A stretch of DNA of 64,000 nt from positions 1 to 64,000 of the forward strand of contig JAPVXR010000007.1 of the NCBI GenBank assembly GCA_027214385.1. Direction: 5' to 3'. Shown here piece after piece: positions 15,477-41,497 of the stretch. The translations under genes were made by a program, and so were the position numbers. How positions within the stretch are numbered: position 1 is the stretch's first letter; the number at the start of each line of letters is the position of its first letter. The notes under the pieces were generated by a model. The model worked only from the letters and a program-made list of their open reading frames with translations, ran no database searches and was not told where the DNA came from. The stretch is from Cryomorphaceae bacterium 1068. GTDB lineage: Bacteria; Bacteroidota; Bacteroidia; Flavobacteriales_D; Cryomorphaceae.

Positions 15477-15491
15477 GTGTCACTTGTACAC
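15477..15491. promoter_or_regulatory. Candidate alpha-glucan operator upstream of susC
   Basis: On the gene strand the site reads GTGT-ACAAG-TGACAC, 45 bp before the susC ATG and directly in front of a -7-like box (TAGATTTT, minus strand 15475-15468). Its position inside the promoter suits a repressor. It matches GTGT-N5-TKACAC, also found at 18387, 27205 and 40644. Confidence 0.6.
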
Positions 15492-15515
15492 GTTTGTTCA
15501 AACTGATAAAAATCA

Positions 15516-18353: not shown

Positions 18354-18386
18354 ATCCTGATCGATTGTATCTGTTTTTAGTAATTA

Positions 18387-18401
18387 GTGTCAAAAATACA
18401 C
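18387..18401. promoter_or_regulatory. Candidate alpha-glucan operator overlapping the GH13 promoter
   Basis: On the gene strand: GTGT-ATTTT-TGACAC, 34 bp before the ATG. A perfect Bacteroidota -7 box, TATTTTTG (minus strand, 18398-18391), lies inside the palindrome, and a TTG occurs 21 bp upstream of it. A protein bound here would block RNA polymerase directly. Confidence 0.65.
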
Positions 18402-18479
18402 TTTAGGATGTTAACTCAGCAATTCCAACGAAAAAAAATTTCACCAAATGAGAATCCTATGATGTAGTATTAATTGTGG

Positions 18480-22132: not shown

Positions 22133-23824
22133 TTACTGTACCATCAACTTGTAAACGGCAGTCTGGCTGCGCTCGTTTACAATGTTTAGGAAGTAAAGAC
22201 CGGGATTCAAATCAGTTGTGTTGACTTCGTAACGCGTCGTGTTTAAAACAGCATTCTCACGAACCGTTTTTCCAGTAATGTCTACGATGTTCATTCTCAA
22301 AGTGTATCCATTCGGGTTAGGAACATCGATGTAAGAAACGCCATTTGAAGGATTCGGGAAAATAGATACCGAACCGATCTCTAAATCATTCGAGTTAAGT
22401 GGGCCGCAAGAATTGAAAGGCACAACAACTATTACTTCCTCCTCACCTGAACGAGTATGAGTTCTATTCCAACCTCCGATACCGTTAGCAGTTCCGCATC
22501 CGCCTGCTTCAAAGTCAGCAGACTCTTCATTGTCTACAACGTTTGGATCTCCATTCGTGTACTTGTATTGCAAATCAGGTGAACCTGAAACTTCGTAAGT
22601 AACTTCATAGATACCATCCGAATTGTCGTCAGTCATTGTTAATGCACCTGCTTGGAACACAGGATCAGTGAAACTTCCGATCAAGAAAACTCCTTCGGGA
22701 GAAACTGTCTCAGCATTCATATCTACTTGGAATGTAATGTTGGCAGGGTCAGGATTAGGAACGCATACTTCACTACACTGATTAATACACGCATTAGCTG
22801 TAACTGGATCAGGGCCTACAACAAGCTCCCTATTACCGTTAACTGCACATGTGGCAGGAACTGCTTCCCAGCCTCCAAGACCATTTTGGAATTTAAATTC
22901 ATAAGTACCTTCGCCTAAGGCAAGGGCCAAACTATATGTTCCGTCGCCATTGTCATTCATAGGTTGTCCAGAGAAACCATTGAATGAACCGGCAAGAAAT
23001 CCACCGTTATCGACATCTTCATTAGAAAGATCAACCGTGAAAGTAACGTTAGGGTCTGAGCACGTGTCGCAGCTACCATAGCAGTATGACTCGGTAACAA
23101 CCGTAGCACTTCCTACCGCAATTTGACGGTTACCTGTTCCATCGCTACAGTCACCTGATACAGATTCATCCGGATCAACTCCGAAAGTAGTACCATTTAC
23201 GAATTTGTATTGGTAAGTAGCATCAGCATCAACGTAAGTTACATATCCCCATTCATTCAAACCGAAAGGAGTACATGAACCGTACTCAGGTGTCCAGTTT
23301 GGCTCGATGATCGTACCTGCAACGTGAACTCCTGCTTCAGAGGTAGTTTCATTCGACATGTTCACATTCAATCTCACGGCTACTTTTCCTGCCGGTGCGG
23401 TTCCGTTGTAAGGAATTGCAGGCAAAACGAATCCATCAGGCTGATTTAAAGCATCTGCATGCCAATCAGTAACGGTAAAGAATCGGTTCCCATCAATAGC
23501 AACTTCACCAGGAACTCCTTCGTTCCCTAAATTGGTTCCGTCAGGATTCCAGTCGCTACCGTTGATAAATTTAAATTGGTAAGACCCTGCAGGAAGATCA
23601 ACAGTGAGCTCATAGATACCGTCAGAATCATCGTCAGTCATCATTGACTCGCCCGGTTGCCAGTCTGCAGAAAAACCAGCCTCTTCTTGCCAGTTCCCAG
23701 CTGCATGAACGCCGTTAGCCGAAACTGTTTCGCCGTTCATATCCACTTGAAAAGTAACACTTACCTGAGCCATCGAAGCTGATCCGAAAAGCGCGGCTAG
23801 TGCCATTAAGTAAACTTTTTTCAT
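22133..23824 (-). CDS. Four-module carbohydrate-binding-like protein with T9SS domain
   Basis: A 563-residue protein: signal peptide, four repeated beta-sandwich modules starting near residues 20, 147, 261 and 363, and a T9SS type A tail (SIFPNPSNG). Each module opens with a version of VTFQVDMNxETVSxxGVxxAG and contains (F/Y)xFK(F/Y)xNG plus an acidic MTDDxSDGIY loop. They resemble starch-binding E-set/CBM20- or CBM26-like domains. Modules 2 and 3 carry cysteine pairs (CYGSCDTC, CINQCSEVC). There is no catalytic domain, so the protein probably holds glucan at the cell surface, replacing SusE/SusF. It is divergent from the susA-like gene with symmetric -7 boxes, and a strong terminator follows. 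Confidence 0.8.
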   Translation of the reverse strand: MKKVYLMALAALFGSASMAQVSVTFQVDMNGETVSANGVHAAGNWQEEAGFSADWQPGESMMTDDDSDGIYELTVDLPAGSYQFKFINGSDWNPDGTNLGNEGVPGEVAIDGNRFFTVTDWHADALNQPDGFVLPAIPYNGTAPAGKVAVRLNVNMSNETTSEAGVHVAGTIIEPNWTPEYGSCTPFGLNEWGYVTYVDADATYQYKFVNGTTFGVDPDESVSGDCSDGTGNRQIAVGSATVVTESYCYGSCDTCSDPNVTFTVDLSNEDVDNGGFLAGSFNGFSGQPMNDNGDGTYSLALALGEGTYEFKFQNGLGGWEAVPATCAVNGNRELVVGPDPVTANACINQCSEVCVPNPDPANITFQVDMNAETVSPEGVFLIGSFTDPVFQAGALTMTDDNSDGIYEVTYEVSGSPDLQYKYTNGDPNVVDNEESADFEAGGCGTANGIGGWNRTHTRSGEEEVIVVVPFNSCGPLNSNDLEIGSVSIFPNPSNGVSYIDVPNPNGYTLRMNIVDITGKTVRENAVLNTTRYEVNTTDLNPGLYFLNIVNERSQTAVYKLMVQ

Positions 23825-23873
23825 AATCGTAAATTTTAAGGTTTGAATAGAGTTATTGTTCTTTTTACACTAA

Positions 23874-23954: not shown

Positions 23955-25823
23955 ATGATTAAAATTATTCTCATACTTGGATTCACAGCTTGCACATCGA
24001 CGATTGGATTTGCATACAGCGTAGAGTCTGAATTGCTCCAATCCAATAAAAAGACTGAGTTCACCTTAGAGCCACCGCATTGGTGGGTAGGTATGCCAGA
24101 TGAAAATCTGGAAATTTTGGTTCACAAAGAAAACATCGGAGGCAATGAATTTATGCTTAAAAAATCAGGTGATGGTGTAAGTCTAACAAATACGACTCAG
24201 CTGTCTAACCCAAACTACATTATCTTGAATTTGGAGATTGGGAAGAATGCGCCTGCTCAGACATTGCAATTCACTTCTAAAGGTGAGGCAGGTAAATTTT
24301 CTTTTGAATACGAGTTGGAGGCGCGCCAAGAAGCAAAAAGAGGACTTTCGGGAAAAGACCTTATTTATTTGGTTACTCCCGATCGATTCGCAAATGGAGA
24401 TGAGTCCAACGACAGTGTTGAAGGAATGACACAAGTCGGCATTGACCGCAGTGAGCCTTACGACCGACACGGTGGTGATATCCAAGGAATCATCGATCAT
24501 CTGGATTTTATCCAAGACCTGGGTACTACGGCCATTTGGCCTAATCCTCTTTTGGAGAACGATCAGCCGCACGAGTCGTATCACGGTTATGCCATAACCG
24601 ATCATTACAAAATCGATCCACGATTCGGAACTAACGCACTTTTTCAAACACTGATGGACTCGCTTAGAGGCAGGGATATGAAGATGGTGATGGACGTAAT
24701 CTACAACCATATCGGCAATGAGCACCATCTTTACACAGACATACCAGATAGCAATTGGTTTCATTTTCACGATGGGTTTAACAAGACGAATTACCGCGCT
24801 CCCGCATTGATGGATCCATATGCCTCGGATTTCGATCGGGATAAAATGAGTGATGGTTGGTTTGACAAGCACATGCCCGACTTGAATCAGAAAAATGAGC
24901 ACGTAGCTGCGTACTTGATTCAACAGACGATTTGGTGGGTAGAAGAGTTCGGCATTGAGGCCTTGCGTATCGATACCTATGCCTACCCCGATCAAGCCTT
25001 TATGAGAGCTTGGGGAAAAGCCATGAAAGAGGCCTTTCCCGATTTGTTCCTTTTTGCAGAGACATGGGTGCACGGTATTCCCGTTCAAGCATGGTTTTTG
25101 GGAGATGCGTTAGGACCAGAGCCAAATTATTTAGACGGTCTCACCGACTTTCAACTGCACTATGCTGTGAATGAAGCGATGAATCAAGGTCAGAGCTGGA
25201 CGGGAGGAATTGCCAAAGTGTACTACACATTGGCGAAAGACTACGTTTACGGCCATCCCGAAAATATGGTCACGTTTTTGGATAACCACGATTTGGCCAG
25301 GTTCAACGGTGTGGTCGGGAAAGATTTTAAAAAGTTCAAAATGGGTATCGGTATGCTCATGACGATGAGAGGCATCCCGAGTCTTTACTACGGCACTGAG
25401 CTACTCATGAGTGAAACAGATGGTCACGGAAAAATCCGAGAAGATGTAATGGGCGGATGGGCTACGGATAGTTTGGACAAGTTCAAACCTGAAGGTAGGT
25501 CGGACTTAGAAAATGAAGCCTTTGATTACATCAAAAACTTAGCTGCTTTGCGACAATCCAACGAGGCATTGCATTCGGGGAAAACAACTCAATACGTTCC
25601 TATCGATGGATTGTACGTGTATTTCCGTTACGCGGATGATCAAGTCTTTATGGTTGCGGTGAATACGTCTGATAAAGAAGTGTCCACACCCAGAACGAAA
25701 TACGATCAGTTTTTGGCAGGAAAAAAATACGTTACCGACGCGATCACATCAGAACAAATGCCCATCGGAGAAAAAGAGATGGTTTTTCAGCCTAAGTCAT
25801 TTTCCATCTACCAGCTTCCTTAA
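23955..25823 (+). CDS. susA: SusA-like GH13 neopullulanase/cyclomaltodextrinase
   Basis: A 622-residue periplasmic enzyme with a signal peptide (ending AYS), an N-terminal Ig-like domain (about 30-125, PPHWWVGM typical of SusA-type enzymes), a GH13 barrel (about 130-530) and a C-terminal beta domain. Conserved regions: DVIYNH, EALRIDTYAYPD (nucleophile Asp), LFAETWV (acid Glu) and TFLDNHD. PDRFANGD and HGGDIQGI are typical of the neopullulanase group. It should cut imported maltooligosaccharides to glucose, maltose and short products. It is the only plus-strand gene of the alpha-glucan locus and is convergent with the MFS permease gene. Confidence 0.88.
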   Translation: MIKIILILGFTACTSTIGFAYSVESELLQSNKKTEFTLEPPHWWVGMPDENLEILVHKENIGGNEFMLKKSGDGVSLTNTTQLSNPNYIILNLEIGKNAPAQTLQFTSKGEAGKFSFEYELEARQEAKRGLSGKDLIYLVTPDRFANGDESNDSVEGMTQVGIDRSEPYDRHGGDIQGIIDHLDFIQDLGTTAIWPNPLLENDQPHESYHGYAITDHYKIDPRFGTNALFQTLMDSLRGRDMKMVMDVIYNHIGNEHHLYTDIPDSNWFHFHDGFNKTNYRAPALMDPYASDFDRDKMSDGWFDKHMPDLNQKNEHVAAYLIQQTIWWVEEFGIEALRIDTYAYPDQAFMRAWGKAMKEAFPDLFLFAETWVHGIPVQAWFLGDALGPEPNYLDGLTDFQLHYAVNEAMNQGQSWTGGIAKVYYTLAKDYVYGHPENMVTFLDNHDLARFNGVVGKDFKKFKMGIGMLMTMRGIPSLYYGTELLMSETDGHGKIREDVMGGWATDSLDKFKPEGRSDLENEAFDYIKNLAALRQSNEALHSGKTTQYVPIDGLYVYFRYADDQVFMVAVNTSDKEVSTPRTKYDQFLAGKKYVTDAITSEQMPIGEKEMVFQPKSFSIYQLP

Positions 25824-25831
25824 AAGAAAAC

Positions 25832-27163
25832 TCAAGACGATATTTCGACGTTTTTTATTCTGAAGGTTAAGATTCCTGCCAAAATCATAAAAGCACCACC
25901 TAGCATCAATGCATATATCGGGTTGCCGCCGAAAGCATATTTTACAATCAAACCACCGAAAATAGCGTTGATAATCTGCGGAAGGACAATAAAGAAATTG
26001 AAGATTCCCATGTAGACTCCCATCTTATTTGCAGGAATGGAACCTGCCAACATAGCATAAGGCATGGCCAGAATACTGGCCCAAGCAATTCCAACCAAGA
26101 TCATGGAGAACAACAGAAAGTTGGGCGAAGGCGCAATATAAATTGACAATAATCCTATACCTCCTGCAAAGAGAGAGATCATGTGGGTTTTTCGACGTCC
26201 GATGGCTTTCGCAATTGAAGGAAGCATGAATGCGTAAATAGCCGATACCAGATTATAGACCCCAAAGATTACTCCTACCCAATCTGCCGCGTCAGAATAC
26301 ATTTGCGATGAACTATCATCTAAGGCAGTTCCGTAGACATGATGTGCAATGGCAGGGGTTGTAAAAACCCACATACTGAAAAGACCAAACCACGAAAAGA
26401 ACTGAACTAAACCCAGCTGCTTCATGGTAGTAGGCATATTTTTAAAATCCTTTGGCAAATCTTTGAGTCCGCCCGATTCCTCTATAATCTCTTCACCCGC
26501 AAACTCTTGCAGCTCTTCAGGGCTATACTCCTTCGTTGTGAATATGGTAATCAGAATGGTCACCATTAAAACGCCTGCACCGACAATGAATGAAAAAACC
26601 ACGTTATCGGGAATTTCACCGTCAGGAGCCGTATTTGAAATGCCAAACCAATTGGCAAGTACGTATGGAAGCCAAGAGCCAATCACCGCACCAATTCCAA
26701 TTAGTACGGTCTGAATACTGAATCCTGAATTTCTCTGTTCGTCTGATAGCTTATCGGCCACCAAAGCTCTAAATGGCTCCATGGCCACATTAAAAGACGC
26801 GTCCATAATGGCTAAGAACCCAGCCCCTACCCACAAGGCTGGCAGGAAAGCGATAAACAGGTCAGCCTGTGGCATTAAGATCAAACCTGCAGAGGCCAAA
26901 ATTGCTCCAGCCAGAAAGAATGGGCGTCTTCTTCCCAATGGGGTCCAGGTTTTATCGCTCAAGGCGCCGATGATTGGCTGAACAATTAATCCTGTTAAGG
27001 GAGCAACAATCCAAAACCAAGAAAGCTCATGTACATCCGCTCCAAAGACTTGCAAAATCCTGCTTGCATTCCCATTCTGAAGCGCAAACCCCATTTGAAT
27101 TCCGAGAAATCCGAAACTCATATTCCAGATGGAGGCAACACTAAGTCTTGGTTTTTGCTTCAT
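25832..27163 (-). CDS. MFS permease, SLC45-like maltose/sugar transporter
   Basis: About 443 residues with twelve predicted membrane helices. SLC45-type features are WNMSFGFLGIQMGFALQNG at the N terminus, VQPIIGALSDKTWTPLGRRRPFFLAGA between helices 2 and 3, and EPFRALVADKLSDEQR. Relatives in Bacteroidota alpha-glucan loci import maltose or maltooligosaccharides by proton symport. The ATG at 27163 is chosen because it starts the conserved KPRLS-WNMSFGF region; the ATG at 27226 lies inside the upstream terminator. The gene has its own short upstream region with a candidate operator. It would feed the cytoplasmic maltose phosphorylase encoded about 9 kb away. Confidence 0.87.
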   Translation of the reverse strand: MKQKPRLSVASIWNMSFGFLGIQMGFALQNGNASRILQVFGADVHELSWFWIVAPLTGLIVQPIIGALSDKTWTPLGRRRPFFLAGAILASAGLILMPQADLFIAFLPALWVGAGFLAIMDASFNVAMEPFRALVADKLSDEQRNSGFSIQTVLIGIGAVIGSWLPYVLANWFGISNTAPDGEIPDNVVFSFIVGAGVLMVTILITIFTTKEYSPEELQEFAGEEIIEESGGLKDLPKDFKNMPTTMKQLGLVQFFSWFGLFSMWVFTTPAIAHHVYGTALDDSSSQMYSDAADWVGVIFGVYNLVSAIYAFMLPSIAKAIGRRKTHMISLFAGGIGLLSIYIAPSPNFLLFSMILVGIAWASILAMPYAMLAGSIPANKMGVYMGIFNFFIVLPQIINAIFGGLIVKYAFGGNPIYALMLGGAFMILAGILTFRIKNVEISS

Positions 27164-27204
27164 GATCTTTTGGTTTTGAAGCGAGAAATATAGAAAAAAC
27201 ATTG

Positions 27205-27219
27205 GTGTCAGGATAACAC
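27205..27219. promoter_or_regulatory. Candidate alpha-glucan operator upstream of the MFS permease
   Basis: On the gene strand: GTGT-TATCC-TGACAC, 42 bp before the chosen ATG and between the preceding terminator and the gene. A near-match -7 box (TATATTTC) follows on the same strand. It matches the sites upstream of susC, the large GH13 gene and pfkA. Confidence 0.6.
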
Positions 27220-27220
27220 T

Positions 27221-27255
27221 AAACAAAAAAGGCGGTACCCTTTTCGGATACCGCC
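27221..27255 (-). terminator. Terminator after the 482-aa T9SS protein
   Basis: Stem GGCGGTA (27231-27237) / TACCGCC (27249-27255), extended by a CC/GG pair after one mismatch, with a TTTTTTGTTT tract on the minus strand (27230-27221). It separates the T9SS protein from the MFS permease. Confidence 0.82.
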
Positions 27256-28810: not shown

Positions 28811-30590
<1,780 letters not shown>

Positions 30591-30607: not shown

Positions 30608-31672
30608 TTAGTTTCTATTGAGGCAGTTCAAGTCATCAAAAGCCTGAGTCAAGCGCGTCACGAAACTTTGCTCACCTTTTCTCAACCAATTTCTTGGATC
30701 GTAGTGCTTCTTATTCGGCTTGTCAGCGCCGTCTGGGTTTCCGATTTGCGTTTGTAAGTAGCCCTCATTCGCCTGGTAGTAATTCTTGATTCCATCCCAG
30801 AATGCCCACTGCATATCTGTATCGATATTCATCTTGATAGCTCCGTAAGAAATGGCTTCGCGAATTTCGGCTTGAGAAGAACCCGATCCACCGTGGAAGA
30901 CAAAGTTCACCGGTTGTGCACCAGTATTGAATTTCTTTTGAATGTATTCCTGAGAATTCTTCAATATAATTGGCTTAAGCGAAACATTACCGGGCTTGTA
31001 AACACCGTGAACATTACCAAAAGCTGCTGCCACAGTAAAGTTTGGCGATATTTGCTTGAGCCTTTCATAAGAGTATGCTACCTCTTCAGGCTGCGTGTAA
31101 AGCTTTGAGCTATCTACGTCAGTATTGTCTACTCCATCTTCTTCACCTCCTGTTACACCCAGTTCGATTTCGATAGTCATTCCCATCTTGTTCATTCGCT
31201 CGAAGTACTTCGATGATGTTTCAATGTTCTCTTCGATTGGCTCTTCACTCAAATCGAGCATGTGAGAGCTGTATAGTGGTTGGCCGTTCTTTTCGAAATA
31301 CTTTTCTCCCGCATCGAGTAATCCATCAATCCAAGGGAGTAGCTTCTTGGCGCAGTGGTCTGTATGAAGAATCACCGGAACTCCGTATGCCTTGGCCATT
31401 TCGTGCACGTGAAGTGCTCCGCTGATTCCACCGGCAATTGCTCCTGCTTGACCTTCGGAGGTAATTCCTTTTCCGGCAAAAAAATGAGCTCCTCCATTTG
31501 AGAATTGGATGATCACAGGAGAGTTGACCTCTCTGGCAGTTTCCAAAACGGCATTCACCGAATTTGTCCCGATTACGTTTACCGCAGGAAGGGCAAAATC
31601 GTTTTCGTTGGCGTAGTTAAAAAGGTCGGTTACTTCTTGTCCGTGAAGGACTCCTGCTCTGAATTTACTCAT
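30608..31672 (-). CDS. fbaA: Class II fructose-bisphosphate aldolase
   Basis: A 354-residue zinc-dependent aldolase of the class IIA (E. coli FbaA) type. It splits fructose-1,6-bisphosphate into dihydroxyacetone phosphate and glyceraldehyde-3-phosphate. Zinc and active-site motifs are VILHTDHCAKKLLPW (about residue 106), SSHMLDLSEEP, IEIELGVTGGEEDGVDN, AFGNVHGVY and VFHGGSGSS. Class IIA is indicated by the insertion around IETSSKYFERM and the length. It lies 12 bp downstream of mgsA in the pfkA-pgi run. Confidence 0.95.
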   Translation of the reverse strand: MSKFRAGVLHGQEVTDLFNYANENDFALPAVNVIGTNSVNAVLETAREVNSPVIIQFSNGGAHFFAGKGITSEGQAGAIAGGISGALHVHEMAKAYGVPVILHTDHCAKKLLPWIDGLLDAGEKYFEKNGQPLYSSHMLDLSEEPIEENIETSSKYFERMNKMGMTIEIELGVTGGEEDGVDNTDVDSSKLYTQPEEVAYSYERLKQISPNFTVAAAFGNVHGVYKPGNVSLKPIILKNSQEYIQKKFNTGAQPVNFVFHGGSGSSQAEIREAISYGAIKMNIDTDMQWAFWDGIKNYYQANEGYLQTQIGNPDGADKPNKKHYDPRNWLRKGEQSFVTRLTQAFDDLNCLNRN

Positions 31673-31684: not shown

Positions 31685-32050
31685 TTATGTTAGTCCGTTA
31701 ATTATCATTTTGGCCGTAGCCTGATTGGTGGCTAAAGGTACATTGTGCACGTCACATATCCTCATCAACATGGCTATATCCGGCTCGTGTGGATGACGGT
31801 CAAGAGGATCGCGAAAGAAAATAACAGCGTTGATTTTACCTTCCGTCACCATTGCAGCTATTTGGGCATCCCCGCCTAAAGGACCTGAGGCGACCTTTTG
31901 AACATCAAGGCCAGCGCGCTCCACGTGAGTTCCCGTTGTACCCGTTGCCACTAGGTCGACTGATTGTTGCAACAAGAACTCTTTGTGTTCTTGCAGAAAA
32001 GCGACCATATCGGCCTTTTTTCCATCGTGCGCTATAATGGCTAATTTCAT
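31685..32050 (-). CDS. mgsA: Methylglyoxal synthase
   Basis: A 121-residue single MGS-domain protein, shorter than the 152-residue E. coli enzyme but with the core complete: IAHDGKKADM (phosphate site), VATGTTGTHVE, GPLGGDAQIAAMV with the catalytic Asp region, FFRDPLDRHPHEPDI and NVPLATNQATA. It converts dihydroxyacetone phosphate to methylglyoxal, a bypass that releases phosphate when sugar phosphates pile up. It overlaps the GH13 lipoprotein gene by 4 bp and lies 12 bp before fbaA, which makes its substrate. Confidence 0.93.
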   Translation of the reverse strand: MKLAIIAHDGKKADMVAFLQEHKEFLLQQSVDLVATGTTGTHVERAGLDVQKVASGPLGGDAQIAAMVTEGKINAVIFFRDPLDRHPHEPDIAMLMRICDVHNVPLATNQATAKMIINGLT

Positions 32051-33426
32051 GGAGTATGGAAAACGTGGTAAGCGAATGGAGCTAAATCAACTCCTTCCGA
32101 AAGAATCGTGTAGTCTACTTCGTCGAAAAGACTTTTCATATTCATTTCAGGGAGTGAACCATCAAAACTCACATCCACGGTCTCATTAGAAAAATTCAAA
32201 ACGACGATTACAGCATCATCACCTTTTTGACGCTTGAAGGCATAGACCTTATCGTCAGCATTGGTGGATAGTCGGTCAAAATTTCCGCCGTACTCACCAT
32301 TCCAAAGGGCTTCATTCTCTCGTTTGAGCATTAAGAGCTTGGTGTAGAAATCTTGCAATTCGTAATCGCCCCAATCGATGGTGTCTTTTTCGAAAAAAGC
32401 CAAAGACTCATCCATTCCCGCTTCCTGACCGCTGTATAGTAGCGGCATTCCTGCAATGGTGTATGCCAAAACAGCGTAGGTCTTGTGCCCTTCTTCGCCG
32501 TAGCGCTCCATCACCGTTCCATTCCACGAATTCTCGTCGTGATTGGTGGTGAAGTACATTCGGTAAGCTTCTTTTGGAAAGAGCGTATCCTGCTTGGCCA
32601 TGTATTCGTCAAACGCAGCCAGTGTCTTCTCGCCTTTAGCGACACCATTTATTACATGGAGAAATTCCCAACCGTAACTCATTTCAAAGGCTTTCTCGTG
32701 ATGCTCGGGGTCTTCCCATTCGGCTAGCATGAAGATGTCGGGGCGAACTGCCTCTAGCGAATCTCTGGCTGCCTCCCAAAAATCAGTTGGAACAAAACCT
32801 GCCACATCACAGCGGTAACCATCTACACCTGTTTCTTCTACCCAAAACTGCAAGGCGTCGATCATAGCCAAGCGCAAATCGGGATTGTCGTAATTCAAAT
32901 CTGCCACATCGCTCCAATCGGTGCCTTCAGGCATTTGAAGGTTACCGAGGGAGTCGAGGTTGTAATAATCCTTGTGGTCTTCTACCCAAACATTGTCGAA
33001 AGACGAATGATTGGCCACCCAATCCAAGATAACTTTCATATCGAGATCGTGCGCCTTCTCCACAAGGGCCTTAAAGTCAGCCATTGTTCCAAACTCAGGA
33101 TTCACTGCTTTGTAATCTAGAATGGAATAATAGCTTCCCTTCCCACCTTTGCGGTTCAACTCGCCTATAGGATAGATCGGCATCAGCCAAATAATCTTAA
33201 TGCCCATGTCCTTTATTCTGGACAAGTCTTCGGTTACCGCATTCAAGGTTCCTTCAGGAGAATATTGACGCACATTGACTTCGTAGATGGTTGCGTTCTT
33301 TGACCAATCATCGTGACTGGTCGGTGCGGCGGTTTCTTCAGTGGCTTCCGAATCTTGAGATTTCGGTGCTTCTTGACAGGCTGTCAAACCAATTGCAAAA
33401 GCGAAAAATAAAGCTGAGCACTTCAT
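32047..33426 (-). CDS. GH13 alpha-amylase-family lipoprotein, 459 aa
   Basis: Lipobox GLTAC (Cys about residue 17) followed by a linker and a compact GH13 barrel. Regions: DWVANHSS, GYRCDVAGFVP (nucleophile Asp), MLAEWEDPEH (acid Glu) and FTTNHDENSW. A short C-terminal beta domain ends VFHTP. There is no CBM. It is anchored to a membrane facing the periplasm or surface and should cleave short alpha-1,4-glucans. It overlaps mgsA by 4 bp and follows another GH13 lipoprotein gene by 2 bp, so it belongs to the operon that also encodes cytoplasmic maltose metabolism. Confidence 0.9.
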   Translation of the reverse strand: MKCSALFFAFAIGLTACQEAPKSQDSEATEETAAPTSHDDWSKNATIYEVNVRQYSPEGTLNAVTEDLSRIKDMGIKIIWLMPIYPIGELNRKGGKGSYYSILDYKAVNPEFGTMADFKALVEKAHDLDMKVILDWVANHSSFDNVWVEDHKDYYNLDSLGNLQMPEGTDWSDVADLNYDNPDLRLAMIDALQFWVEETGVDGYRCDVAGFVPTDFWEAARDSLEAVRPDIFMLAEWEDPEHHEKAFEMSYGWEFLHVINGVAKGEKTLAAFDEYMAKQDTLFPKEAYRMYFTTNHDENSWNGTVMERYGEEGHKTYAVLAYTIAGMPLLYSGQEAGMDESLAFFEKDTIDWGDYELQDFYTKLLMLKRENEALWNGEYGGNFDRLSTNADDKVYAFKRQKGDDAVIVVLNFSNETVDVSFDGSLPEMNMKSLFDEVDYTILSEGVDLAPFAYHVFHTP

Positions 33427-33428
33427 AG

Positions 33429-35807
33429 TTAAAGGGTAAGAATTTCAAATGAGACAGCAGGAAGCGCAATTGTGATCGTTTTTCCGTCGAGGGTAAATTG
33501 ATTTCCAAAATTGGCTTTGAATCCCTCAATATTGTAGTGAACGGGAACTTCAACGGTCACTGTTTTTTCTTGTCGAGAGCTATTGATGAACAGAACAGCC
33601 GTTTGATCAAAGTAATTTCGGAGCACGGCCATTTCCTTATTGGAAATACTGAGTACTTCGGTGTCTCCGTAAAGCAATGCCATATTGCCCTTGCGCAGGT
33701 TTGCCAACGTAGTCACCTCCTGAAGCATGGCTTGCTCCCTTTCGGTCAGGTCGTCGCCAAACTGCATCATGCGGCGGTTATCGGGATCGCCCGCTCCAAT
33801 CATTCCGTACTCGTCGCCGTAGTAAATTACGGGAATGCCAGGAGAGAAAAAGTTAAACGCTTGTAGCAAACCGAGTCGATTGAAACCGATGGTATCTCCA
33901 CGAGTAATGTCGCGGGTCCAGCCTGCCAATTTCGGGTCTTCGCCAAAATCAACCGTTCCATCCGCGTAAGAGATAAAGCGCGTGCGGTCTTGGTTTCCGG
34001 AGATGTTTCCCATCAGATGATGATCGCCGTAACCCAGTAAGCTCTGACCAAATACTCGATTCAAATCTTCGAGACTCCCATTGTCTTTTCCGAAAGCTGA
34101 TACCTCAGCGTCGTAGAGGTTAAAGTCGAATTGTGCATCGAGCATTCCCGAACTGATATAGCTTCCGATCAAATCGGGATTCCCATAGGTCTCCCCAATT
34201 TGGTAGATATTTCGGTCTTCGGGAACCACCACGCGGTACTTTAGTTTTCGCGTAAGCTCACGCCAAAAGCTCAGCGGAATGTGCTTGGTGGCATCGTGAC
34301 GGAAACCGTCAATCGGAAATTCTTCGAACCAGTAAAGCGCGCTATCAGTCATGGCGGCTGTCACATCATCGCGACGCAAATCCAGCGTTGGCATAAAAGT
34401 ATCGAACCAAGTGGTGAGGCGGTACTCGTCCCAGCGCTCAGTATTCAGGGATCCGTCGGGAAGATATAGCTCTGTTGCCCAATCAGGGTGTAGCTGATAA
34501 ACGGGATGTTCTTGATGAACGTGATTGGCCACGTAGTCGAGAATCACATTCATGTCTTCCTTATGGGCCTCGTCGATCAGCGAATGGAGCACGGAGTCAT
34601 TGCCAAATCGCATATCTACCGCCGAGGAAGAGATGGGCCAATACCCATGGTATCCCGAAAATTTCGTTCTGACTCCACCTTTGTCCCAAAGACCGTAGGC
34701 GCCGAGCGGATTCTGCACAATTGGCGAAAGCCAAACGGTGTTCATTCCCAATTTTTGAAAATAACCTTCTTCAATTTTTTGATTCACACCCGCTAAGTCG
34801 CCCCCGTAGTAATTGGCAATCGGTAAAATCTCTGGATCATCGACAGGGATATCGTTGGATGCTTGGGCATTCACGAAACGGTCGACCATCATGAAATACA
34901 TGGAATAGGTATGCTTATCCGTGCGATTCAAAGCACTGGCCTCCATAACGGGCATGCCCTTTTCGAGGGGAATGAGTACATCGTTGGAACGCTGCTCACC
35001 GTCTGAAGCAAAAACGCGAATATAGCTTCGCGCCGATTCAGCCGCTGCATCGGGAATTGGAAAGCTTAGTCGATCTCCGCGTCGAGCATACCAGCTATCG
35101 CCGAGTACTTGGTTCTCCCATAAAATCAAAGGAGGGGTGAGTTCTTCAGGAAAATGTAAAACAATGCTATCTCCCAAATATCCGTAAGTCGAAATATGGG
35201 GGCGATCAGCTGTGGCTCCAACTCTAAAGGCGGAGTTGAACCCACCTGAACCATTATCCTTTTTATCAGGATTGGTCGGGTCGAGCATTTCCACGCCATC
35301 TTGAACGACTTGGTACTCGTACAAACCCGGATTCAAAATGAGCGTGTCGTACCACACTCCATTTTGTTCTGAAAGCATTCCGGCCTTGTAGTTCCAGCCG
35401 TTGAAATTTCCTTTCAGACCTATTTCCTGCGGATTTCCGGTAGGAGGATCGTAGGTAAAAACGTGAGCTTGTTTGCGGCTTTTGAAAACGGGGATTTCAT
35501 ACTCCACTCCTTCGTAGGAGGCAGAAAGAAACGTGACAGGATCGTCTGAATTGAAATTCTCGACCGTCAAGATTCCTTCATTGAGATCGAAGTCTACGGC
35601 TACTCCGAAGCTTACCGAATCTACTTTTTCAGGATTCTCGAAATAGTCGCCCAAGTGGATTTCGGTTTGACCAAAATCCAGCCGAATAGGGCTAGCTATG
35701 CCAACAATGGCTTTGCCGTTCTCAACGGTTGGCTTTACATCTTTTTGAGAAGCACAGCCAAATGCAGCAGCTCCCACGAGCAGAATCAGACACTTTATTT
35801 TATTCAT
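33429..35807 (-). CDS. GH13 alpha-amylase-family lipoprotein with E-set/CBM48-like domain, 792 aa
   Basis: Lipobox AAFGC (Cys about residue 18). Residues about 30-110 are Ig-like, about 110-195 a glycogen-binding E-set (YDPPTGNPQEIGLKGNFNGWNY), about 300-690 the GH13 barrel, then a C-terminal beta domain. Catalytic regions: DYVANHVHQEHP, GFRHDATKHIP (nucleophile Asp), QIGETYGN (acid Glu) and SGNQDRTRF. Region IV has Gln in place of the usual His of the NHD motif, which is unusual and may mark a distinct specificity. Its start overlaps the maltose phosphorylase gene by 4 bp. Confidence 0.88.
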   Translation of the reverse strand: MNKIKCLILLVGAAAFGCASQKDVKPTVENGKAIVGIASPIRLDFGQTEIHLGDYFENPEKVDSVSFGVAVDFDLNEGILTVENFNSDDPVTFLSASYEGVEYEIPVFKSRKQAHVFTYDPPTGNPQEIGLKGNFNGWNYKAGMLSEQNGVWYDTLILNPGLYEYQVVQDGVEMLDPTNPDKKDNGSGGFNSAFRVGATADRPHISTYGYLGDSIVLHFPEELTPPLILWENQVLGDSWYARRGDRLSFPIPDAAAESARSYIRVFASDGEQRSNDVLIPLEKGMPVMEASALNRTDKHTYSMYFMMVDRFVNAQASNDIPVDDPEILPIANYYGGDLAGVNQKIEEGYFQKLGMNTVWLSPIVQNPLGAYGLWDKGGVRTKFSGYHGYWPISSSAVDMRFGNDSVLHSLIDEAHKEDMNVILDYVANHVHQEHPVYQLHPDWATELYLPDGSLNTERWDEYRLTTWFDTFMPTLDLRRDDVTAAMTDSALYWFEEFPIDGFRHDATKHIPLSFWRELTRKLKYRVVVPEDRNIYQIGETYGNPDLIGSYISSGMLDAQFDFNLYDAEVSAFGKDNGSLEDLNRVFGQSLLGYGDHHLMGNISGNQDRTRFISYADGTVDFGEDPKLAGWTRDITRGDTIGFNRLGLLQAFNFFSPGIPVIYYGDEYGMIGAGDPDNRRMMQFGDDLTEREQAMLQEVTTLANLRKGNMALLYGDTEVLSISNKEMAVLRNYFDQTAVLFINSSRQEKTVTVEVPVHYNIEGFKANFGNQFTLDGKTITIALPAVSFEILTL

Positions 35808-38107
35808 CTTCCGATGGAAATGGTTTCATTTTCAGGAACGGAAACTGATTTACCGTAAACCAAAATGTCCAAACTACCACCTGATACATTCTTCACACTC
35901 ACTTCTTCGGGCTTCACCGTAATGCTAAGAACCGTTTCACGATACACGAGATTAAAGCGGTAGGCATTCCAATTTTTTGGGATCATTGGATCAAGGCTCA
36001 AGATACCGTCTTTCACTCTTTTTCCACCAAAACCTTCAACTACGGCCATCCAGGTACCCGCCATTGATGTAATGTGAAGTCCTTCATCCGCTTCGTGGTT
36101 GTAGTCGTCTAAGTCGAGACGAGCGGTACGCAAGTACATCTCGTAAGCCTTGTCTTCCATACCCAGCTTAGAGGCGAGTACTACGTGAACGCAAGGTGAA
36201 AGCGAGCTTTCATGAACCGTTCGCGGTTCGTAGTACAAGAAGTTTTCGCGGATGGTGGCTTCGTCGAAGTCTTCTTCGAAAAAGTACATTCCTTGTAGTA
36301 CATCGGCTTGTTTGATGAAAACAGATCTTAGGATTCTATCCCAAGACCAGTGCTGATTGATGGGTCTTTCGGATTTATCCAAGTCATCAGCTACGCGGTC
36401 TTCTTTGTCCAAGAATCCGTCTTGCTGAAGATAGAGTTTGGTTCCTTCTTTCTTGGGCTCGTACATCTTTTCGCAGATGTCTGACCACTTCTCGAGTTCT
36501 TTATCATCGAAGGAAGTTTTGGAAACAAAATCACTCCAGTACGAGGCATCTTGGCGAGCGTATGCTATGCTTTCTGAAGCATAGCTCATTGCCCATTTAG
36601 CGATGTAATTTGTGTACCAGTTGTTGTTGACGTTGTTTTCGTATTCGTTTGGACCGGTAACGCCGAGCATCACGTATTGATTCTTGGATTTGCTCCAGTT
36701 GACGCGCTGCGCCCAGAATCGAGCGATTCCAACAAGTACTTCCAAACCACCCTCTTTGAGGTAGTCGCGGTCGCCAGTGTGGCGGATGTAATTGTAAATG
36801 GCGTAAGCAATCGCACCGTTTCGGTGAATTTCTTCAAAAGTGATTTCCCACTCATTGTGGCACTCTTCACCATTCATGGTTACCATTGGGTAAAGGGCAG
36901 CTCCTTTTGAAAAACCTAATTTTTCGGCGTTTTCAATGGCCTTTTCCAGCTGACGGTAGCGGTAAAGCAGCAATTGCTTGGCTACTTCACTTCCAGATGT
37001 GAGCATGTAAAAAGGCAGACAGTATGCTTCTGTATCCCAATAAGTAGACCCACCGTATTTCTCTCCTGTGAATCCTTTCGGGCCAATGTTCAGTCGCGGA
37101 TCTTCGCCAGTGTAGGTTTGATTGAGCTGGAAGATGTTGAAGCGAATGGCTTGTTGCGCAGATACATCCCCATCGATTACGATGTCGTTCATCTCCCATC
37201 GCTTCTCCCAGGCATCTTTTTGCTCTTGAAGCATTTTCTCATAGCCCTTATCAGCGGCTTGAGCCAATGCTTCTTTCGCTCGTTCAGTCAGTTTAGTCTT
37301 GGGGTGATTTTCTGAAGAGATATTGCAAGCAAATTTATAAACCACAATCTCCTCACCTTGATTGGCTTCGAGACTCAAAAGGTTTTCGACATACTTGGCT
37401 CTTTCTACTTGATTGCTCGTAAAATCTACATTCCCACCATCTTTCGTGACAAAAATCTTCTGTCCCGTACAAACCTGAAAATCCAGTTTTTTAGTGGCCA
37501 AAGTGACGTATGCTTCGGAGTTTGAAGTGCTTTTGTCAACTTCAGCCCAAAACTTTTCGTCGTAGTTGGAATCTTGGTTGATAATGTCTCCATCGATGTA
37601 GACACGGAAATCAATTTTCCCTGAAAAGTTGAGTGGAGTCAAACTGTAGCGGATTACAGCTACCTCATCATCTACCATGCTGAGAAAGCGTTTCGCATCG
37701 ACTTGTACTTCGGCGCCATTTTTCAATTTGGCTTTAAAGCTTCTGTGCAAAGTACCTTCCTGCATATTGAGTTCGCGACGAAAGTCGCTCACCTCAGCCA
37801 CGTTTAGGTCTAAAGCCTCGCCTTTTACAATAGGACAAAGCCCAATCCAATTGGCAGCATTAAGGACTTTAGCGAAGTATTCAGGGTATCCGTTTTTCCA
37901 CCAACCTACTCGGGTTTTATCGGGATAGTAGACTCCTGCCACGTAATTTCCCTGTAGGGTTTCTCCTGTGTAATCTTCTTCAAAATTGGCCCTTTGGCCC
38001 ATTCGACCGTTTCCTAAACTAAAGATGCTTTCTGATGATTGTTGCATCTCAGGGTGAAAACCTTCTTCAACGATTAGCCAAGGATTTTCTTCGTAATGTT
38101 TTTTCAT
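35804..38107 (-). CDS. GH65 maltose phosphorylase
   Basis: A 767-residue cytoplasmic enzyme (no signal peptide) with the GH65 order: N-terminal beta-sandwich (about 1-270), linker helices, an (alpha/alpha)6 barrel (about 310-680) and a small C-terminal sheet. The catalytic acid lies in VTGPNEYENNVNNNWYTN; other landmarks are GGSTYWDTEAYCLPFY, EECHNEWEITFEEIHRNGA and TVHESSLSPCVH. It splits maltose with phosphate into glucose and beta-glucose-1-phosphate. Kojibiose or trehalose phosphorylase is possible from sequence alone, but adjacent pgmB and the amylases favour maltose. It lies 2 bp after pgmB. Confidence 0.9.
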   Translation of the reverse strand: MKKHYEENPWLIVEEGFHPEMQQSSESIFSLGNGRMGQRANFEEDYTGETLQGNYVAGVYYPDKTRVGWWKNGYPEYFAKVLNAANWIGLCPIVKGEALDLNVAEVSDFRRELNMQEGTLHRSFKAKLKNGAEVQVDAKRFLSMVDDEVAVIRYSLTPLNFSGKIDFRVYIDGDIINQDSNYDEKFWAEVDKSTSNSEAYVTLATKKLDFQVCTGQKIFVTKDGGNVDFTSNQVERAKYVENLLSLEANQGEEIVVYKFACNISSENHPKTKLTERAKEALAQAADKGYEKMLQEQKDAWEKRWEMNDIVIDGDVSAQQAIRFNIFQLNQTYTGEDPRLNIGPKGFTGEKYGGSTYWDTEAYCLPFYMLTSGSEVAKQLLLYRYRQLEKAIENAEKLGFSKGAALYPMVTMNGEECHNEWEITFEEIHRNGAIAYAIYNYIRHTGDRDYLKEGGLEVLVGIARFWAQRVNWSKSKNQYVMLGVTGPNEYENNVNNNWYTNYIAKWAMSYASESIAYARQDASYWSDFVSKTSFDDKELEKWSDICEKMYEPKKEGTKLYLQQDGFLDKEDRVADDLDKSERPINQHWSWDRILRSVFIKQADVLQGMYFFEEDFDEATIRENFLYYEPRTVHESSLSPCVHVVLASKLGMEDKAYEMYLRTARLDLDDYNHEADEGLHITSMAGTWMAVVEGFGGKRVKDGILSLDPMIPKNWNAYRFNLVYRETVLSITVKPEEVSVKNVSGGSLDILVYGKSVSVPENETISIGR

Positions 38108-38109: not shown

Positions 38110-38760
38110 TTAAAGTTTATCGAATAGTTCGATTCCCACGTTTTCAAAACCGGGGATTACAAGGTTTGCTCGGTTTAGGGTTTGCTCATCTCCCACTCCG
38201 ACTATGAACATTCCACCGGCCAGAGCGGCTTCAACTCCTGCTTGAGCGTCTTCAAAAACGACGCAATTGCAAGGATGAGTTTTTAATGCTTCAGCACCGA
38301 GCTGAAAAGTTTGAGGATCAGGCTTGCCTCTTGAGACTTTGGTTCCATCGATGACTGCATCGAAAAGATCAAGAATATTGAGCGCTTCAAGAATCTTAAG
38401 CGCATTTTTACTTGAAGATCCTAAAGCCGTTTTTATACCCGATTCACGAACCAATTTAAGAAAATCAATGGCTCCCGGGAGGGCCTCGTCCATTGTCATT
38501 TTATTGACATCCTCGAGATACCATCCATTCTTCCGAATCATCAATTCTTCTTTCTTTTTATCAGAAAGAGAAACCTTTCCTTTTTTCAAAAGGATGTCGA
38601 GAGACTCTGCTCTGCTTATTCCTTTCAAGGATTCATTCTCTTCTTCAGTAAGATCGAATCCAAGCTCATTGCACAGTCGCTTCCAAGCGTGATAATGGTA
38701 CTTGGCAGTGTCAACAATCACACCGTCAAGATCAAAAAGGCATGCTTTAATATCGGCCAT
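38110..38760 (-). CDS. pgmB: Beta-phosphoglucomutase
   Basis: A 216-residue HAD-superfamily enzyme. The nucleophile motif CLFDLDGVIVDTAKYHYHAW contains the Asp pair, with GISRAESL in the cap, then LGSSSKNA, GKPDPQ and CVVFEDAQAGVEAA. The cap and length match beta-phosphoglucomutases that convert beta-glucose-1-phosphate to glucose-6-phosphate. It sits between the sugar kinase gene (stop at 38761, no gap) and GH65 (2 bp), exactly where the phosphorylase product is handled. Confidence 0.92.
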   Translation of the reverse strand: MADIKACLFDLDGVIVDTAKYHYHAWKRLCNELGFDLTEEENESLKGISRAESLDILLKKGKVSLSDKKKEELMIRKNGWYLEDVNKMTMDEALPGAIDFLKLVRESGIKTALGSSSKNALKILEALNILDLFDAVIDGTKVSRGKPDPQTFQLGAEALKTHPCNCVVFEDAQAGVEAALAGGMFIVGVGDEQTLNRANLVIPGFENVGIELFDKL

Positions 38761-39624
38761 CTAAAATGAAATGTGTTCGAAATAGTTTTTGATATGGTAA
38801 TCATATAAACCGTCAATTGGCTTCTTTATGATCTTACCTATTTGAATATTTCTCATTTCGGCAGCTTGTCGAAGGATATCTTCGTGGTAATAAGCTACAG
38901 AACCAATAAAATGTGTTTTGACTTTTTCGAAATCACGGTAGCAGGTAACGTGGATATCCAAAAATCTTCCGATACCTTCCAAGATCATGTCTTGCACATA
39001 CGGTTCTGACTTGAATCCCGTAATGAATTTCATAAAAGAAGCAAGGTACACGTTGGCATGCGGCTGCATGTAGACCCGGTCGATTATGATGTCTTTGGTC
39101 AAGCCAAATTTATCAACGAGGCCATCATGAATGTTTTGAGGCAGTCGCTTGTATAGAAAATCAGACAGCAATTTCTTACCGAAATAACTCCCGCTCCCCT
39201 CATCACCCAGAATATAGGCAAGAGCGGGAACCTCTTCGCGAACGATGTCACCGTCAAAATGGCAACTATTCGAACCTGTTCCGAGAATACAAGCTATGCA
39301 TGGATCGTCTTCATACACTGCAAATGCTGCAGCGACCAAATCATGGTCAACATATATTTCGGCATGGGGAAAGATCCGATTCAAGCCTTGCTCTGCGGTT
39401 CGTTTTAGTTCTGTAGAAGAGCAACCTGCTCCGTAGAAGAACAATGCTTTGACTTCGTTGGCCACTCGCATCAATTGTTCATTGTTGCGCAATTCAGCCT
39501 CAATTACATCGGCATCATGAAAATACGGATTGATACCCATTGTGGCACAATCGATATATGTCTTGTCTTCAGCGACTATTCTCCAATCGCATTTTGTTGA
39601 GCCACTATCTGCTATTACTAACAT
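38761..39624 (-). CDS. BadF/BadG-type ATPase, putative sugar (glucose or GlcNAc) kinase
   Basis: A 287-residue protein of the ASKHA fold in the N-acetylglucosamine-kinase-like BadF/BadG/BcrA/BcrD group. Features are the phosphate-1 motif VIADSGSTKCDWRI, an IACILGTGSNSCHFDG phosphate-2/adenosine region near residue 113, and LGDEGSGSYFGKKLL near 143. GlcNAc kinases of this type phosphorylate amino sugars, and some accept glucose. No other hexokinase occurs in the window, and maltose phosphorylase releases free glucose, so this enzyme is a candidate glucose kinase. It lies 17 bp after pfkA. Confidence 0.8.
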   Translation of the reverse strand: MLVIADSGSTKCDWRIVAEDKTYIDCATMGINPYFHDADVIEAELRNNEQLMRVANEVKALFFYGAGCSSTELKRTAEQGLNRIFPHAEIYVDHDLVAAAFAVYEDDPCIACILGTGSNSCHFDGDIVREEVPALAYILGDEGSGSYFGKKLLSDFLYKRLPQNIHDGLVDKFGLTKDIIIDRVYMQPHANVYLASFMKFITGFKSEPYVQDMILEGIGRFLDIHVTCYRDFEKVKTHFIGSVAYYHEDILRQAAEMRNIQIGKIIKKPIDGLYDYHIKNYFEHISF

Positions 39625-39641: not shown

Positions 39642-40622
39642 TCAAATCGAGAGTATATCTGCGATTCGAATCAATTCAGGGTCAATGGTTAATTTGTCGC
39701 TTATCGCCGTAGCAAAGGGAGTGAGAACGACCTCGTGATTCATAATTCCCACCATGCAATCTCTTTCACCTTTCAGGAGGTGTTCAACGGCAGCCACTCC
39801 TAAGCGACTTGCGAGGTTTCTGTCAAAGCATGAAGGACTTCCACCGCGCTGGATATGCCCTAAGATGGTCACCTTGGTATCGTAATAGGGAGCCTTTTCA
39901 GAGACTTGGCGAGCGAGCTCGGTGGCGTTACCACTTTTTCCACCTTCCGCTACTATAATTACACTCGAAGATTTGTTTTTTCTTCTAGCCTCATCCAGTT
40001 TTTCAACGATACTGTCGATGGTTGTTTCCCGTTCGGGAATGAGCGTGGCAAGTGCACCGCTGGCGACACCGGCATGAGCAGCAATAAAACCTGCATCTCT
40101 TCCCATCACTTCCACAAAAAAGAGCCGGCTATGAGATGCAGCGGTATCTCTGATTTTATCCACCGCGTCTATGACTGTGTTGAGTGCAGTATCGAAGCCA
40201 ATGGTATAATCGGTACCGTCCAAATCGTTATCGATAGTACCAGGAATCCCAATGAATGGAAAATCGAATTCTTTATTAAAGATATGGGCTCCTGTAAATG
40301 TACCATCACCACCAATGGCAACAACGGCGTCAATACCCTTATTAATGAGCTTTTGATAGGCTTTTTCACGGCCTTCTTTTGTCATAAACTCTTTGCTTCT
40401 GGCGGACTTCAGAAAAGTCCCACCACGCTGGAGAATATGATTAACGGAGCGAACATCAAGTTCCTCAATATCCCCTTCGACCATTCCTTCGTAACCTCGA
40501 TATATACCGGCTATCTGCAAGTCATAATACACGGCAGTCCGCACGACCGCACGCACAGCGGCGTTCATACCAGGAGAATCTCCTCCGGAAGTGAATACCG
40601 CAATTTTTTTGATTGAACCCAT
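39642..40622 (-). CDS. pfkA: ATP-dependent 6-phosphofructokinase
   Basis: A 326-residue enzyme of the bacterial PfkA type that phosphorylates fructose-6-phosphate to fructose-1,6-bisphosphate. Motifs: TSGGDSPGMNAAVRA at the N terminus, AIGGDGTFTGA (GGDGT marks ATP rather than pyrophosphate use), the catalytic PGTIDNDLDGTD and the effector/substrate region VEVMGRDAGFIA. It is the first gene of the nine-gene minus-strand run ending at pgi. A candidate operator lies 22 bp upstream of its ATG, shared with the divergent regulator gene. Confidence 0.95.
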   Translation of the reverse strand: MGSIKKIAVFTSGGDSPGMNAAVRAVVRTAVYYDLQIAGIYRGYEGMVEGDIEELDVRSVNHILQRGGTFLKSARSKEFMTKEGREKAYQKLINKGIDAVVAIGGDGTFTGAHIFNKEFDFPFIGIPGTIDNDLDGTDYTIGFDTALNTVIDAVDKIRDTAASHSRLFFVEVMGRDAGFIAAHAGVASGALATLIPERETTIDSIVEKLDEARRKNKSSSVIIVAEGGKSGNATELARQVSEKAPYYDTKVTILGHIQRGGSPSCFDRNLASRLGVAAVEHLLKGERDCMVGIMNHEVVLTPFATAISDKLTIDPELIRIADILSI

Positions 40623-40643
40623 AAATGGAGTTTTGTTTTTAAA

Positions 40644-40658
40644 GTGTAATTTTCACAC
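40644..40658. promoter_or_regulatory. Candidate alpha-glucan operator between pfkA operon and regulator
   Basis: The plus strand reads AAGTGTAATTTTCACACTT (40642-40660), a palindrome with a 7-nt centre. On the pfkA strand it is GTGT-GAAAA-TTACAC. It is 22 bp from the pfkA ATG and about 80 bp from the regulator ATG, so it could control both. It fits GTGT-N5-TKACAC with T at the K position. Confidence 0.6.
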
Positions 40659-40696
40659 TTAGCCTACGATAACGCAAATAAACGAGAATTTATTGA

Positions 40697-40704
40697 TATT
40701 TTTG
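40697..40704 (+). promoter_or_regulatory. -7 box of the Nudix-type regulator gene
   Basis: TATTTTTG is an exact match to the Bacteroidota TAnnTTTG -7 element, 35 bp before the ATG at 40739. No clear -33 TTTG is seen at the usual 19-21 bp spacing. Confidence 0.45.
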
Positions 40705-40738
40705 ACCCCTACTCGACTAAAAACGACAGTTATTGAAC

Positions 40739-41497
40739 ATGCGAAATGGTGATGCTGCTGAGGTTAAGTTTAACCCCAACGTATCCGTAGATTGTGTAAT
40801 CTTCGGTTTTGACGGTGAAAAACTCAAAGTCCTTCTTATAGACAGAGGTCAGATGATCAATGGAAAAGGATCTGATGACAAGATATATGCCCTCCCGGGA
40901 AACCTAATCAGAGAAGATGAAAATCTTGATGAGGCGGCGGAAAGGGTATTGGACGAACTTACCGGCCTGTCAGAAATATTCCTAGAGCAATTTGGCTCTT
41001 TTGGTGCACCTGATCGGCTCACTAAAGAACATGATTTGGCTTGGCTTAAGTCTATTAGAGCGCAACCCGACGCACGCGTAATCACGGTAGCCTACTATTC
41101 TTTGATTCGAGCGGATCAATATGAAATTCACGCTAGTGGATTTGCCAAAGAAGCTTTTTGGCATGACATTGATAATTTGCCGAAATTGGGATTTGACCAC
41201 AAAGAAATCATTGAAGGTGCTTTAGGCGAACTGAAATTCAAGAGTAAATATCAGCCATTGGGCTTTGAGCTACTACCTGAAAAATTTACACTTGGCCAGC
41301 TACAAAAGCTTTACGAGGCTATTTTAAAGACTGAGTTGGACAAGAGAAATTTTCGAAGAAAAATTCTCAAGATGAGTTTCTTAGTTCCGCTGAAGGAAAA
41401 GCAAAAAGGGGTTCCGCATAAACCCGCACGGTATTACATGTTTGACAAAGAGATGTACCAAAACTACAAGTCAAACGACTTTTACTTTACTCTTTAG
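40739..41497 (+). CDS. NrtR/AraR-like Nudix-winged-helix transcriptional regulator
   Basis: About 252 residues: an N-terminal Nudix-fold domain (about 10-145) and a C-terminal winged helix (about 155-250, 'FTLGQLQKLYEAILKTELDKRNFRRKIL'). The Nudix box is degenerate: after ALPGNLI the catalytic REUxEE pattern is replaced by ERVLDELTGL, so hydrolase activity is unlikely and the domain probably senses a ligand. In Bacteroidota, such regulators control sugar genes (for example the AraR type) rather than NAD synthesis. It diverges from the pfkA operon with a shared palindrome. The ATG at 40739 is preferred to a TTG at 40733. The 3' end overlaps the DnaJ-like gene by 11 bp. Confidence 0.85.
   Translation: MRNGDAAEVKFNPNVSVDCVIFGFDGEKLKVLLIDRGQMINGKGSDDKIYALPGNLIREDENLDEAAERVLDELTGLSEIFLEQFGSFGAPDRLTKEHDLAWLKSIRAQPDARVITVAYYSLIRADQYEIHASGFAKEAFWHDIDNLPKLGFDHKEIIEGALGELKFKSKYQPLGFELLPEKFTLGQLQKLYEAILKTELDKRNFRRKILKMSFLVPLKEKQKGVPHKPARYYMFDKEMYQNYKSNDFYFTL

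Follow-up and report, generated by a model that had tools for sequence, protein, structure and literature searches.

A degenerate-Nudix winged-helix protein of the NrtR/AraR family as a predicted regulator of alpha-glucan genes in Cryomorphaceae bacterium 1068

The stretch of DNA analysed here (the window, 64,000 nt of Cryomorphaceae bacterium 1068, a marine member of the Flavobacteriales) carries genes for alpha-glucan digestion, import and phosphorolysis together with glycolysis genes, and their positions are given in Table 1. The gene for a Nudix-winged-helix regulator is divergent from pfkA, which is the first gene of a large operon. The preferred start of the regulator is ATG 40739, with TTG 40733 as an alternative, and the open reading frame ends at 41497.

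Table 1. Genes and predicted operators in the window, with the basis for each assignment
Feature	Position	Strand	Basis or remark
NrtR/AraR-family Nudix-winged-helix regulator	40739..41497	+	Pfam NrtR_WHD/AraR_C/NUDIX; BtAraR match; AlphaFold/Foldseek
Operator 1, AAGTGTAATTTTCACACTT, pfkA/regulator intergenic	40642..40660		0 mismatches; matrix score 23.6; conserved 60/78
pfkA, first gene of large operon	39642..40622	-	ORF; divergence from regulator; orthologues beside regulator
BadF/NagK-like sugar kinase	38761..39624	-	Pfam/NCBIfam
Beta-phosphoglucomutase-like HAD protein	38110..38760	-	Sequence; place in operon
GH65 (maltose-phosphorylase type)	35804..38107	-	Pfam
GH13	33429..35807	-	Pfam
GH13 amylase	32047..33426	-	Pfam
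Fructose-bisphosphate aldolase	30608..31672	-	Pfam, NCBIfam
Glucose-6-phosphate isomerase	28811..30454	-	Pfam, NCBIfam
Operator 2, TGGTGTCAGGATAACACTA, upstream of MFS transporter	27203..27221		Matrix score 8.7, weakest of five; also in G002
MFS/GPH-type sugar transporter	25832..27163	-	Pfam; ATG 27163 start
GH13, cyclomaltodextrinase/neopullulanase type	23955..25823	+	Pfam
Operator 3, TATTGTTCTTTTTACACTA, between divergent X25 and GH13 genes	23854..23872		Matrix score 14.9
Secreted X25/CBM48-like alpha-glucan-binding protein (T9SS)	22133..23824	-	Pfam
Operator 4, TAGTGTCAAAAATACACTT, 31 bp before T9SS amylase start	18385..18403		Matrix score 24.5; conserved in family
Secreted GH13 amylase, T9SS tail	15516..18353	-	Pfam
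Operator 5, ATGTGTCACTTGTACACGT, between amylase and SusC	15475..15493		Matrix score 15.4; same place in G002
SusC-type TonB receptor	12307..15432	-	Pfam; ATG 15432 start
SusD-type lipoprotein	10881..12302	-	Pfam

The product of the regulator gene has an N-terminal Nudix domain (NUDIX, E=1e-6) fused to an NrtR winged helix (NrtR_WHD, E=7e-28), both above the Pfam cut-offs, and it also matches AraR_C (E=2e-13). Its best match among solved structures is BtAraR (5bs6; E=3e-41). An AlphaFold model built from the window and relative sequences (pLDDT 88, pTM 0.85) gives 5bs6 as the top Foldseek match, with NrtR next (3gz5/3gz6). The open reading frame is real and these lines of evidence agree with the Nudix-wHTH identity proposed in the preliminary description. 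The Nudix box, numbered from ATG 40739, reads G54-NLIRED-E61-NLDEAAE-R69-V-L-D-E73-L-T-G76-L and does not match GX5EX7REUXEEXGU, the box of an active hydrolase. R69, E73 and G76 are kept. Of the three glutamates in REUxEE two are replaced, by V70 and L74, and the box has its first Glu shifted by one residue. The earlier statement that the catalytic residues are lacking is therefore right in substance, with one Glu remaining. The regulator is an NrtR/AraR-family protein made up of a degenerate-Nudix domain and a winged helix.

BtAraR (BT0354) is the L-arabinose repressor of Bacteroides and its published operators have the layout GTGT-N7-ACAC, for example AAGTGTAAAAAAGACACTT at BT0365 (PMC4666351). 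The regulator shares with it the Nudix-winged-helix fold (top match by both Foldseek and phmmer), a degenerate Nudix box, the recognition helix DKRNFR and the GTGT-N7-ACAC operator. The arabinose-holding residues Arg34, Arg86 and His131 of the BtAraR pocket are kept (Arg, Arg, His), whereas Phe36, Gly48 and Phe49 are replaced by Gln, Asn and Leu, and the regulator has an extra conserved loop of about 15 residues (KEHDLAWLKSIRAQP). The changed pocket and the extra loop would fit a ligand different from arabinose. The predicted targets are alpha-glucan and glycolysis genes rather than ara genes. As BtAraR branches outside the clade of the regulator, no ara genes were found among the scanned window genes and three pocket residues are replaced, we rejected AraR as an assignment.

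XylR, the NrtR-family xylose regulator of Bacteroidetes (BT0791 type), belongs to the same family, and the xylA-linked homologues share the larger clade of the regulator. Judged by these members, which have DNRNFR helices and (A/G)CGT-N7-ACG(T/C) operators, XylR is unlike the regulator. There is no xylA near the regulator gene and this candidate was also rejected. Among the loci the xylA motif occurs only in L114, L127, L129 and L132, and never beside the alpha-glucan-type members. In L114, L127 and L129 the combination of DNRNFR helix and upstream (A/G)CGT-N7-ACG(T/C) palindrome is a candidate XylR operator code. NrtR, the ADP-ribose-responsive NAD regulator, has the same fold and domain order (3gz5/3gz6). 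The regulator scores 109 bits against a cut-off of 400 for the NCBIfam NtrR equivalog and NAD genes are absent nearby, so it was not assigned to this group.

There is a 19-bp inverted repeat, AAGTGTAATTTTCACACTT, in the region between pfkA and the regulator, 19 bp from the start of pfkA. The palindrome at 40644-40658 that had been reported between the two divergent genes is the core, GTGTAATTTTCACAC, of this longer one at 40642-40660. Searching the window for AAGTGTNANNNTNACACTT with up to two mismatches gave two matches against 0.31 expected. Genome-wide sites were obtained by pattern searches: WWGTGTN7ACACWW occurs 15 times in the 4.3 Mb genome, compared with 5 for the reversed pattern. It replaced the looser AAGTGTN7ACACTT with one mismatch, for which there was no excess over the reversed control (20 against 19).

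We then compared regulator orthologues, for which 60 relatives and 80 named genome contigs were the source. In 60 of 78 the pattern GTGT-N7-ACAC is present within 350 bp upstream, while spacers of 2-6 and 8-13 bp are found in only 0-2 of the 78 promoters. The exact core is absent from this 350 bp region in the other 18, and in some of them it lies farther away. A palindromic operator in the regulator's own divergent promoter region is a trait of the NrtR family, and these 60 orthologues have it. In 80 regulator loci the strict pattern occurs almost only before regulator, pfkA, kinase, SusC, amylase, GH13 and MFS genes, and the reversed control does not occur at all. The pattern outnumbers its reversed control in the 29 genomes that have the regulator (221 against 73) and not in the 31 that lack it (94 against 113), a difference with a Fisher p=2e-11 when kinship is ignored. 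The predicted operator consensus is wAGTGT-N7-ACACTw, 19 bp in length. Short palindromes are common and the one-mismatch pattern shows no excess over its control, which would fit a chance or terminator-like repeat beside a gene for a Nudix enzyme. However, spacing and position are strictly kept over diverged promoters and the protein combines a degenerate Nudix box with a winged helix, so that we give this explanation almost no weight.

A weight matrix built from the operators of relatives only was used to scan the window. There are four sites above 14 bits (0.07 expected) and six above 8 bits (0.6 expected), five of which are at promoters. Each of the five operators is at an alpha-glucan or glycolysis promoter and every alpha-glucan promoter region of the window is covered; the preliminary description had counted four promoter fragments. 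The SusC and MFS sites seemed to be intragenic because the mechanical gene starts had been set too far upstream, and the likely starts are ATG 15432 for SusC and ATG 27163 for the MFS transporter. Sites at 14956 (within SusC) and 41916 (within a DnaJ-like gene) were judged to be due to chance. In a relative, the genome G002, which has a single NrtR-type protein that is the orthologue of the focal regulator, the five sites recur at the same five places, and the 19-mer of operator 3 is identical.

Outside the window the strict pattern is found upstream of three further genes, which encode another secreted amylase (28 bp from the start; conserved in three relatives), another X25 protein (29 bp) and GAPDH (16 bp). 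The GAPDH operator is present in 7/7 scorable genomes of the same family. In families f4 and f9 the GAPDH gene is without a separate operator and directly adjoins pfkA and the regulator. The amylase promoters of families f3, f7 and f8 have no GTGT operator, although most of these genomes have the regulator; in the Asn-type f3 clade there are AACGT-type sites at SusC and GH13 instead. The predicted regulon takes in glycolysis (pfkA and GAPDH) as well as the alpha-glucan genes to which control had originally been attributed.

Several other sites were seen. An identical operator, AAGTGTCATTTGAACACTT, lies upstream of the GAPDH gene in five f8 genomes (G014, G040, G044, G048 and G057). One of these, G014, has only another NrtR subtype, which indicates that paralogues can share the motif. 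In the genome under study (G000) there are strong operators 36 bp before the start of a giant secreted protein of at least 2727 aa with one PATR repeat (L166; C11:70219) and 6 bp before the start of a T9SS protein with an Ig-like domain (L169; C13:52362).

In the crystal structure of BtAraR with DNA, Lys179 touches the first G of GTGT (PMC4666351). We compared recognition helix and upstream operator in 108 homologues. A GTGT operator is present in 82 of the 101 with Lys in the helix and in none of the seven with Asn or Thr (p=2e-5, ignoring kinship). The xylA-linked Asn-type regulators have changed palindromes, TAACGTAAAATGTACGTTA and TAGCGTATTTTATACGTTA. An alpha-glucan-linked Asn clade has TAACGTTAAAATGACGTTA, TAACGTAGAAATGACGTAA and TAACGTCATAATAACGTTA before SusC and AAACGTCAAATAGACGTTT before GH13, so that the SusC and GH13 promoters of these loci carry sites of the AACGT-N7-ACGTT type. 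The change from Lys to Asn in the helix is thus accompanied by a change of operator at alpha-glucan promoters, which ties the regulator itself, beyond the motif alone, to these promoters.

Regulator orthologues in many lineages of Flavobacteriales adjoin genes for pfkA, a BadF-type kinase, beta-phosphoglucomutase, GH65, GH13, an MFS transporter, SusC/SusD or a T9SS amylase. Across 60 genomes the regulator is present in 23 of the 25 with GH65 and in 6 of the 35 without (both, 23; GH65 only, 2; regulator only, 6; neither, 29; p 6e-9, ignoring kinship). Taken together with the window operators, the G002 layout and the helix/operator covariation, these data support the earlier proposal that a Nudix-wHTH protein probably controls the alpha-glucan genes.

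In Marinilabiliales/Marinifilaceae, homologues precede genes for an MFS transporter and a GH94-like protein (cellobiose phosphorylase type), most of them with the same operator (L096, L097, L099, L102, L110, L112, L113, L120, L133 and L134). This suggests that they form a cellobiose branch of the NrtR family.

The most constant neighbours of the regulator are pfkA and the kinase and the GAPDH operator is conserved, which would also fit a regulator chiefly of glycolysis or glucose status, in the manner of CggR or Cra, that reads a glycolytic intermediate and includes the starch genes only as a part. The sister homologues that go with GH94 point the same way, cellobiose phosphorylase-like enzymes also yielding glucose and glucose-1-phosphate. 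Such a role is a serious but the less probable reading, as sites are also found at the secreted amylases, X25 proteins, MFS importer and SusC, and the regulator tracks GH65. It differs from a regulator devoted to alpha-glucans mainly in the effector.

LacI-type regulators control alpha-glucan genes in Bacteroidota. SusR also controls starch and maltose genes in this phylum (PMC3878776). Both types do the job proposed here for the regulator and are unrelated to it: SusR, a sensor-activator in the membrane, has direct-repeat sites, in contrast with a soluble protein and a predicted inverted-repeat operator. As the regulator is neither a membrane sensor-regulator nor a LacI head with a periplasmic-binding-like domain, it was not assigned to SusR/HTCS or LacI. 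In agreement with what had been reported, we found no SusR-like/HTCS or LacI protein in the window, and the regulator is the only transcription factor next to the locus. One other was found in the window, a LysR-type regulator at 57522-58487, 16 kb away.

A LacI or SusR homologue encoded elsewhere and binding the same sites had been named as the finding that would speak against the regulator. The genome has one LacI, but it is divergent from a TonB receptor that is followed by GH100 invertase and MFS genes (a sucrose-type locus). Y_Y_Y sensor-type proteins, on the other hand, do exist outside the window (13 in the genome, none in the window). There is also a second, very divergent NrtR paralogue (C3:141724-142380; L172), which follows a putative metalloprotease gene and precedes a PHO4 phosphate transporter. 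It has the same DKRNFR helix as the focal regulator and could share its sites; no operator was found within its 16 kb region. It is nevertheless very unlikely that one of these proteins is the true alpha-glucan regulator and that the focal protein has another job, because the LacI is at a sucrose-type locus, G002 keeps the sites without having the paralogue, and the helix/operator covariation connects the focal clade with the operator that alpha-glucan genes carry. A Y_Y_Y sensor-type protein may exert extra control on these genes.

Bacteroidota promoters have a -7 element, TAnnTTTG. The -7 element of the secreted amylase, TATTTTTG, lies within operator 4. In 26 of 54 target promoters of relatives the element overlaps or abuts the operator, compared with 3.2 when the flanks are shuffled, and there are two sharp offsets: in 13 rows the operator immediately follows the -7 element and in 10 it abuts the 5' side (offset +17). 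Given this overlap, repression by occlusion of RNA polymerase is most likely. Autoregulation is uncertain, as operator 1 lies about 37 bp upstream of the -7 element that serves the regulator gene. The 10 sites abutting the 5' side could also be used by an activator, but the 13 downstream sites and the amylase -7 element inside its operator argue against activation, as does the precedent of BtAraR, in which the apo-protein binds DNA and the sugar causes release (PMC4666351). We consider an activator improbable.

From these computed features, namely the family and fold, the conserved operator, the promoters that it marks, the covariation and the overlap with promoter elements, we infer that the regulator binds these sites, that it represses and what kind of effector acts on it. 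The regulator would bind wAGTGT-N7-ACACTw as a dimer at five places in the window, and elsewhere in the genome at three or more. The proposed regulon comprises, within the window, the pfkA-kinase-betaPGM-GH65-GH13-GH13-...-fba(-pgi) cluster together with the genes for the MFS importer, X25 protein, GH13 protein, secreted amylase and SusC-SusD and, outside it, those for the second amylase, another X25 protein and GAPDH. When bound, the regulator would cover the -33/-7/start region and block RNA polymerase. Digestion and import of alpha-glucans would supply a sugar, either free glucose, maltose or a phosphorylated form such as beta-glucose-1-phosphate, that would enter the dead Nudix pocket; the winged helices would then rotate and the DNA would be released. 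With BtAraR as precedent, a repressor that leaves the DNA when it meets a sugar derived from alpha-glucans fits the data best. In summary, the regulator is very probably an NrtR/AraR-family repressor that responds to sugar and is devoted to alpha-glucan use.

Members of the NrtR family are known for the control of NAD, L-arabinose and D-xylose genes. Within the searchable literature, which does not extend to the original 2008 NrtR paper or RegPrecise, only the AraR and B. thetaiotaomicron papers were relevant to the control of starch, maltose or glycolysis genes by a Nudix protein. We found no report of starch or maltose control by this family, as had been expected, nor of glycolysis control, and no description of how Flavobacteriales alpha-glucan loci without a linked SusR or LacI are controlled. 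In its proposed role the regulator represents a new functional branch within an established family rather than a novel type of system.

Marine Bacteroidota have a major source of carbon in starch and similar glucans. It is quite possible, although we put it forward tentatively, that in many Flavobacteriales one cytoplasmic Nudix-derived sensor unites T9SS amylases, SusCD import, maltose phosphorolysis and upper and lower glycolysis by reading a product of the phosphorylase (for example beta-glucose-1-phosphate or glucose), with an operator code that can be tuned by one residue. If this is true, a single Nudix-sensor starch regulon has taken over the role that SusR or LacI has elsewhere. The regulator, its operator and the list of targets predict joint switching of the secreted amylase, of import and of glycolysis. 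The code would be a simple one between protein and DNA that is open to test, a Lys in the helix corresponding to AGTGT and an Asn to AACGT. Beyond NAD, arabinose and xylose, the scope of the NrtR family would come to include alpha-glucans and probably, among Marinilabiliales, cellobiose.
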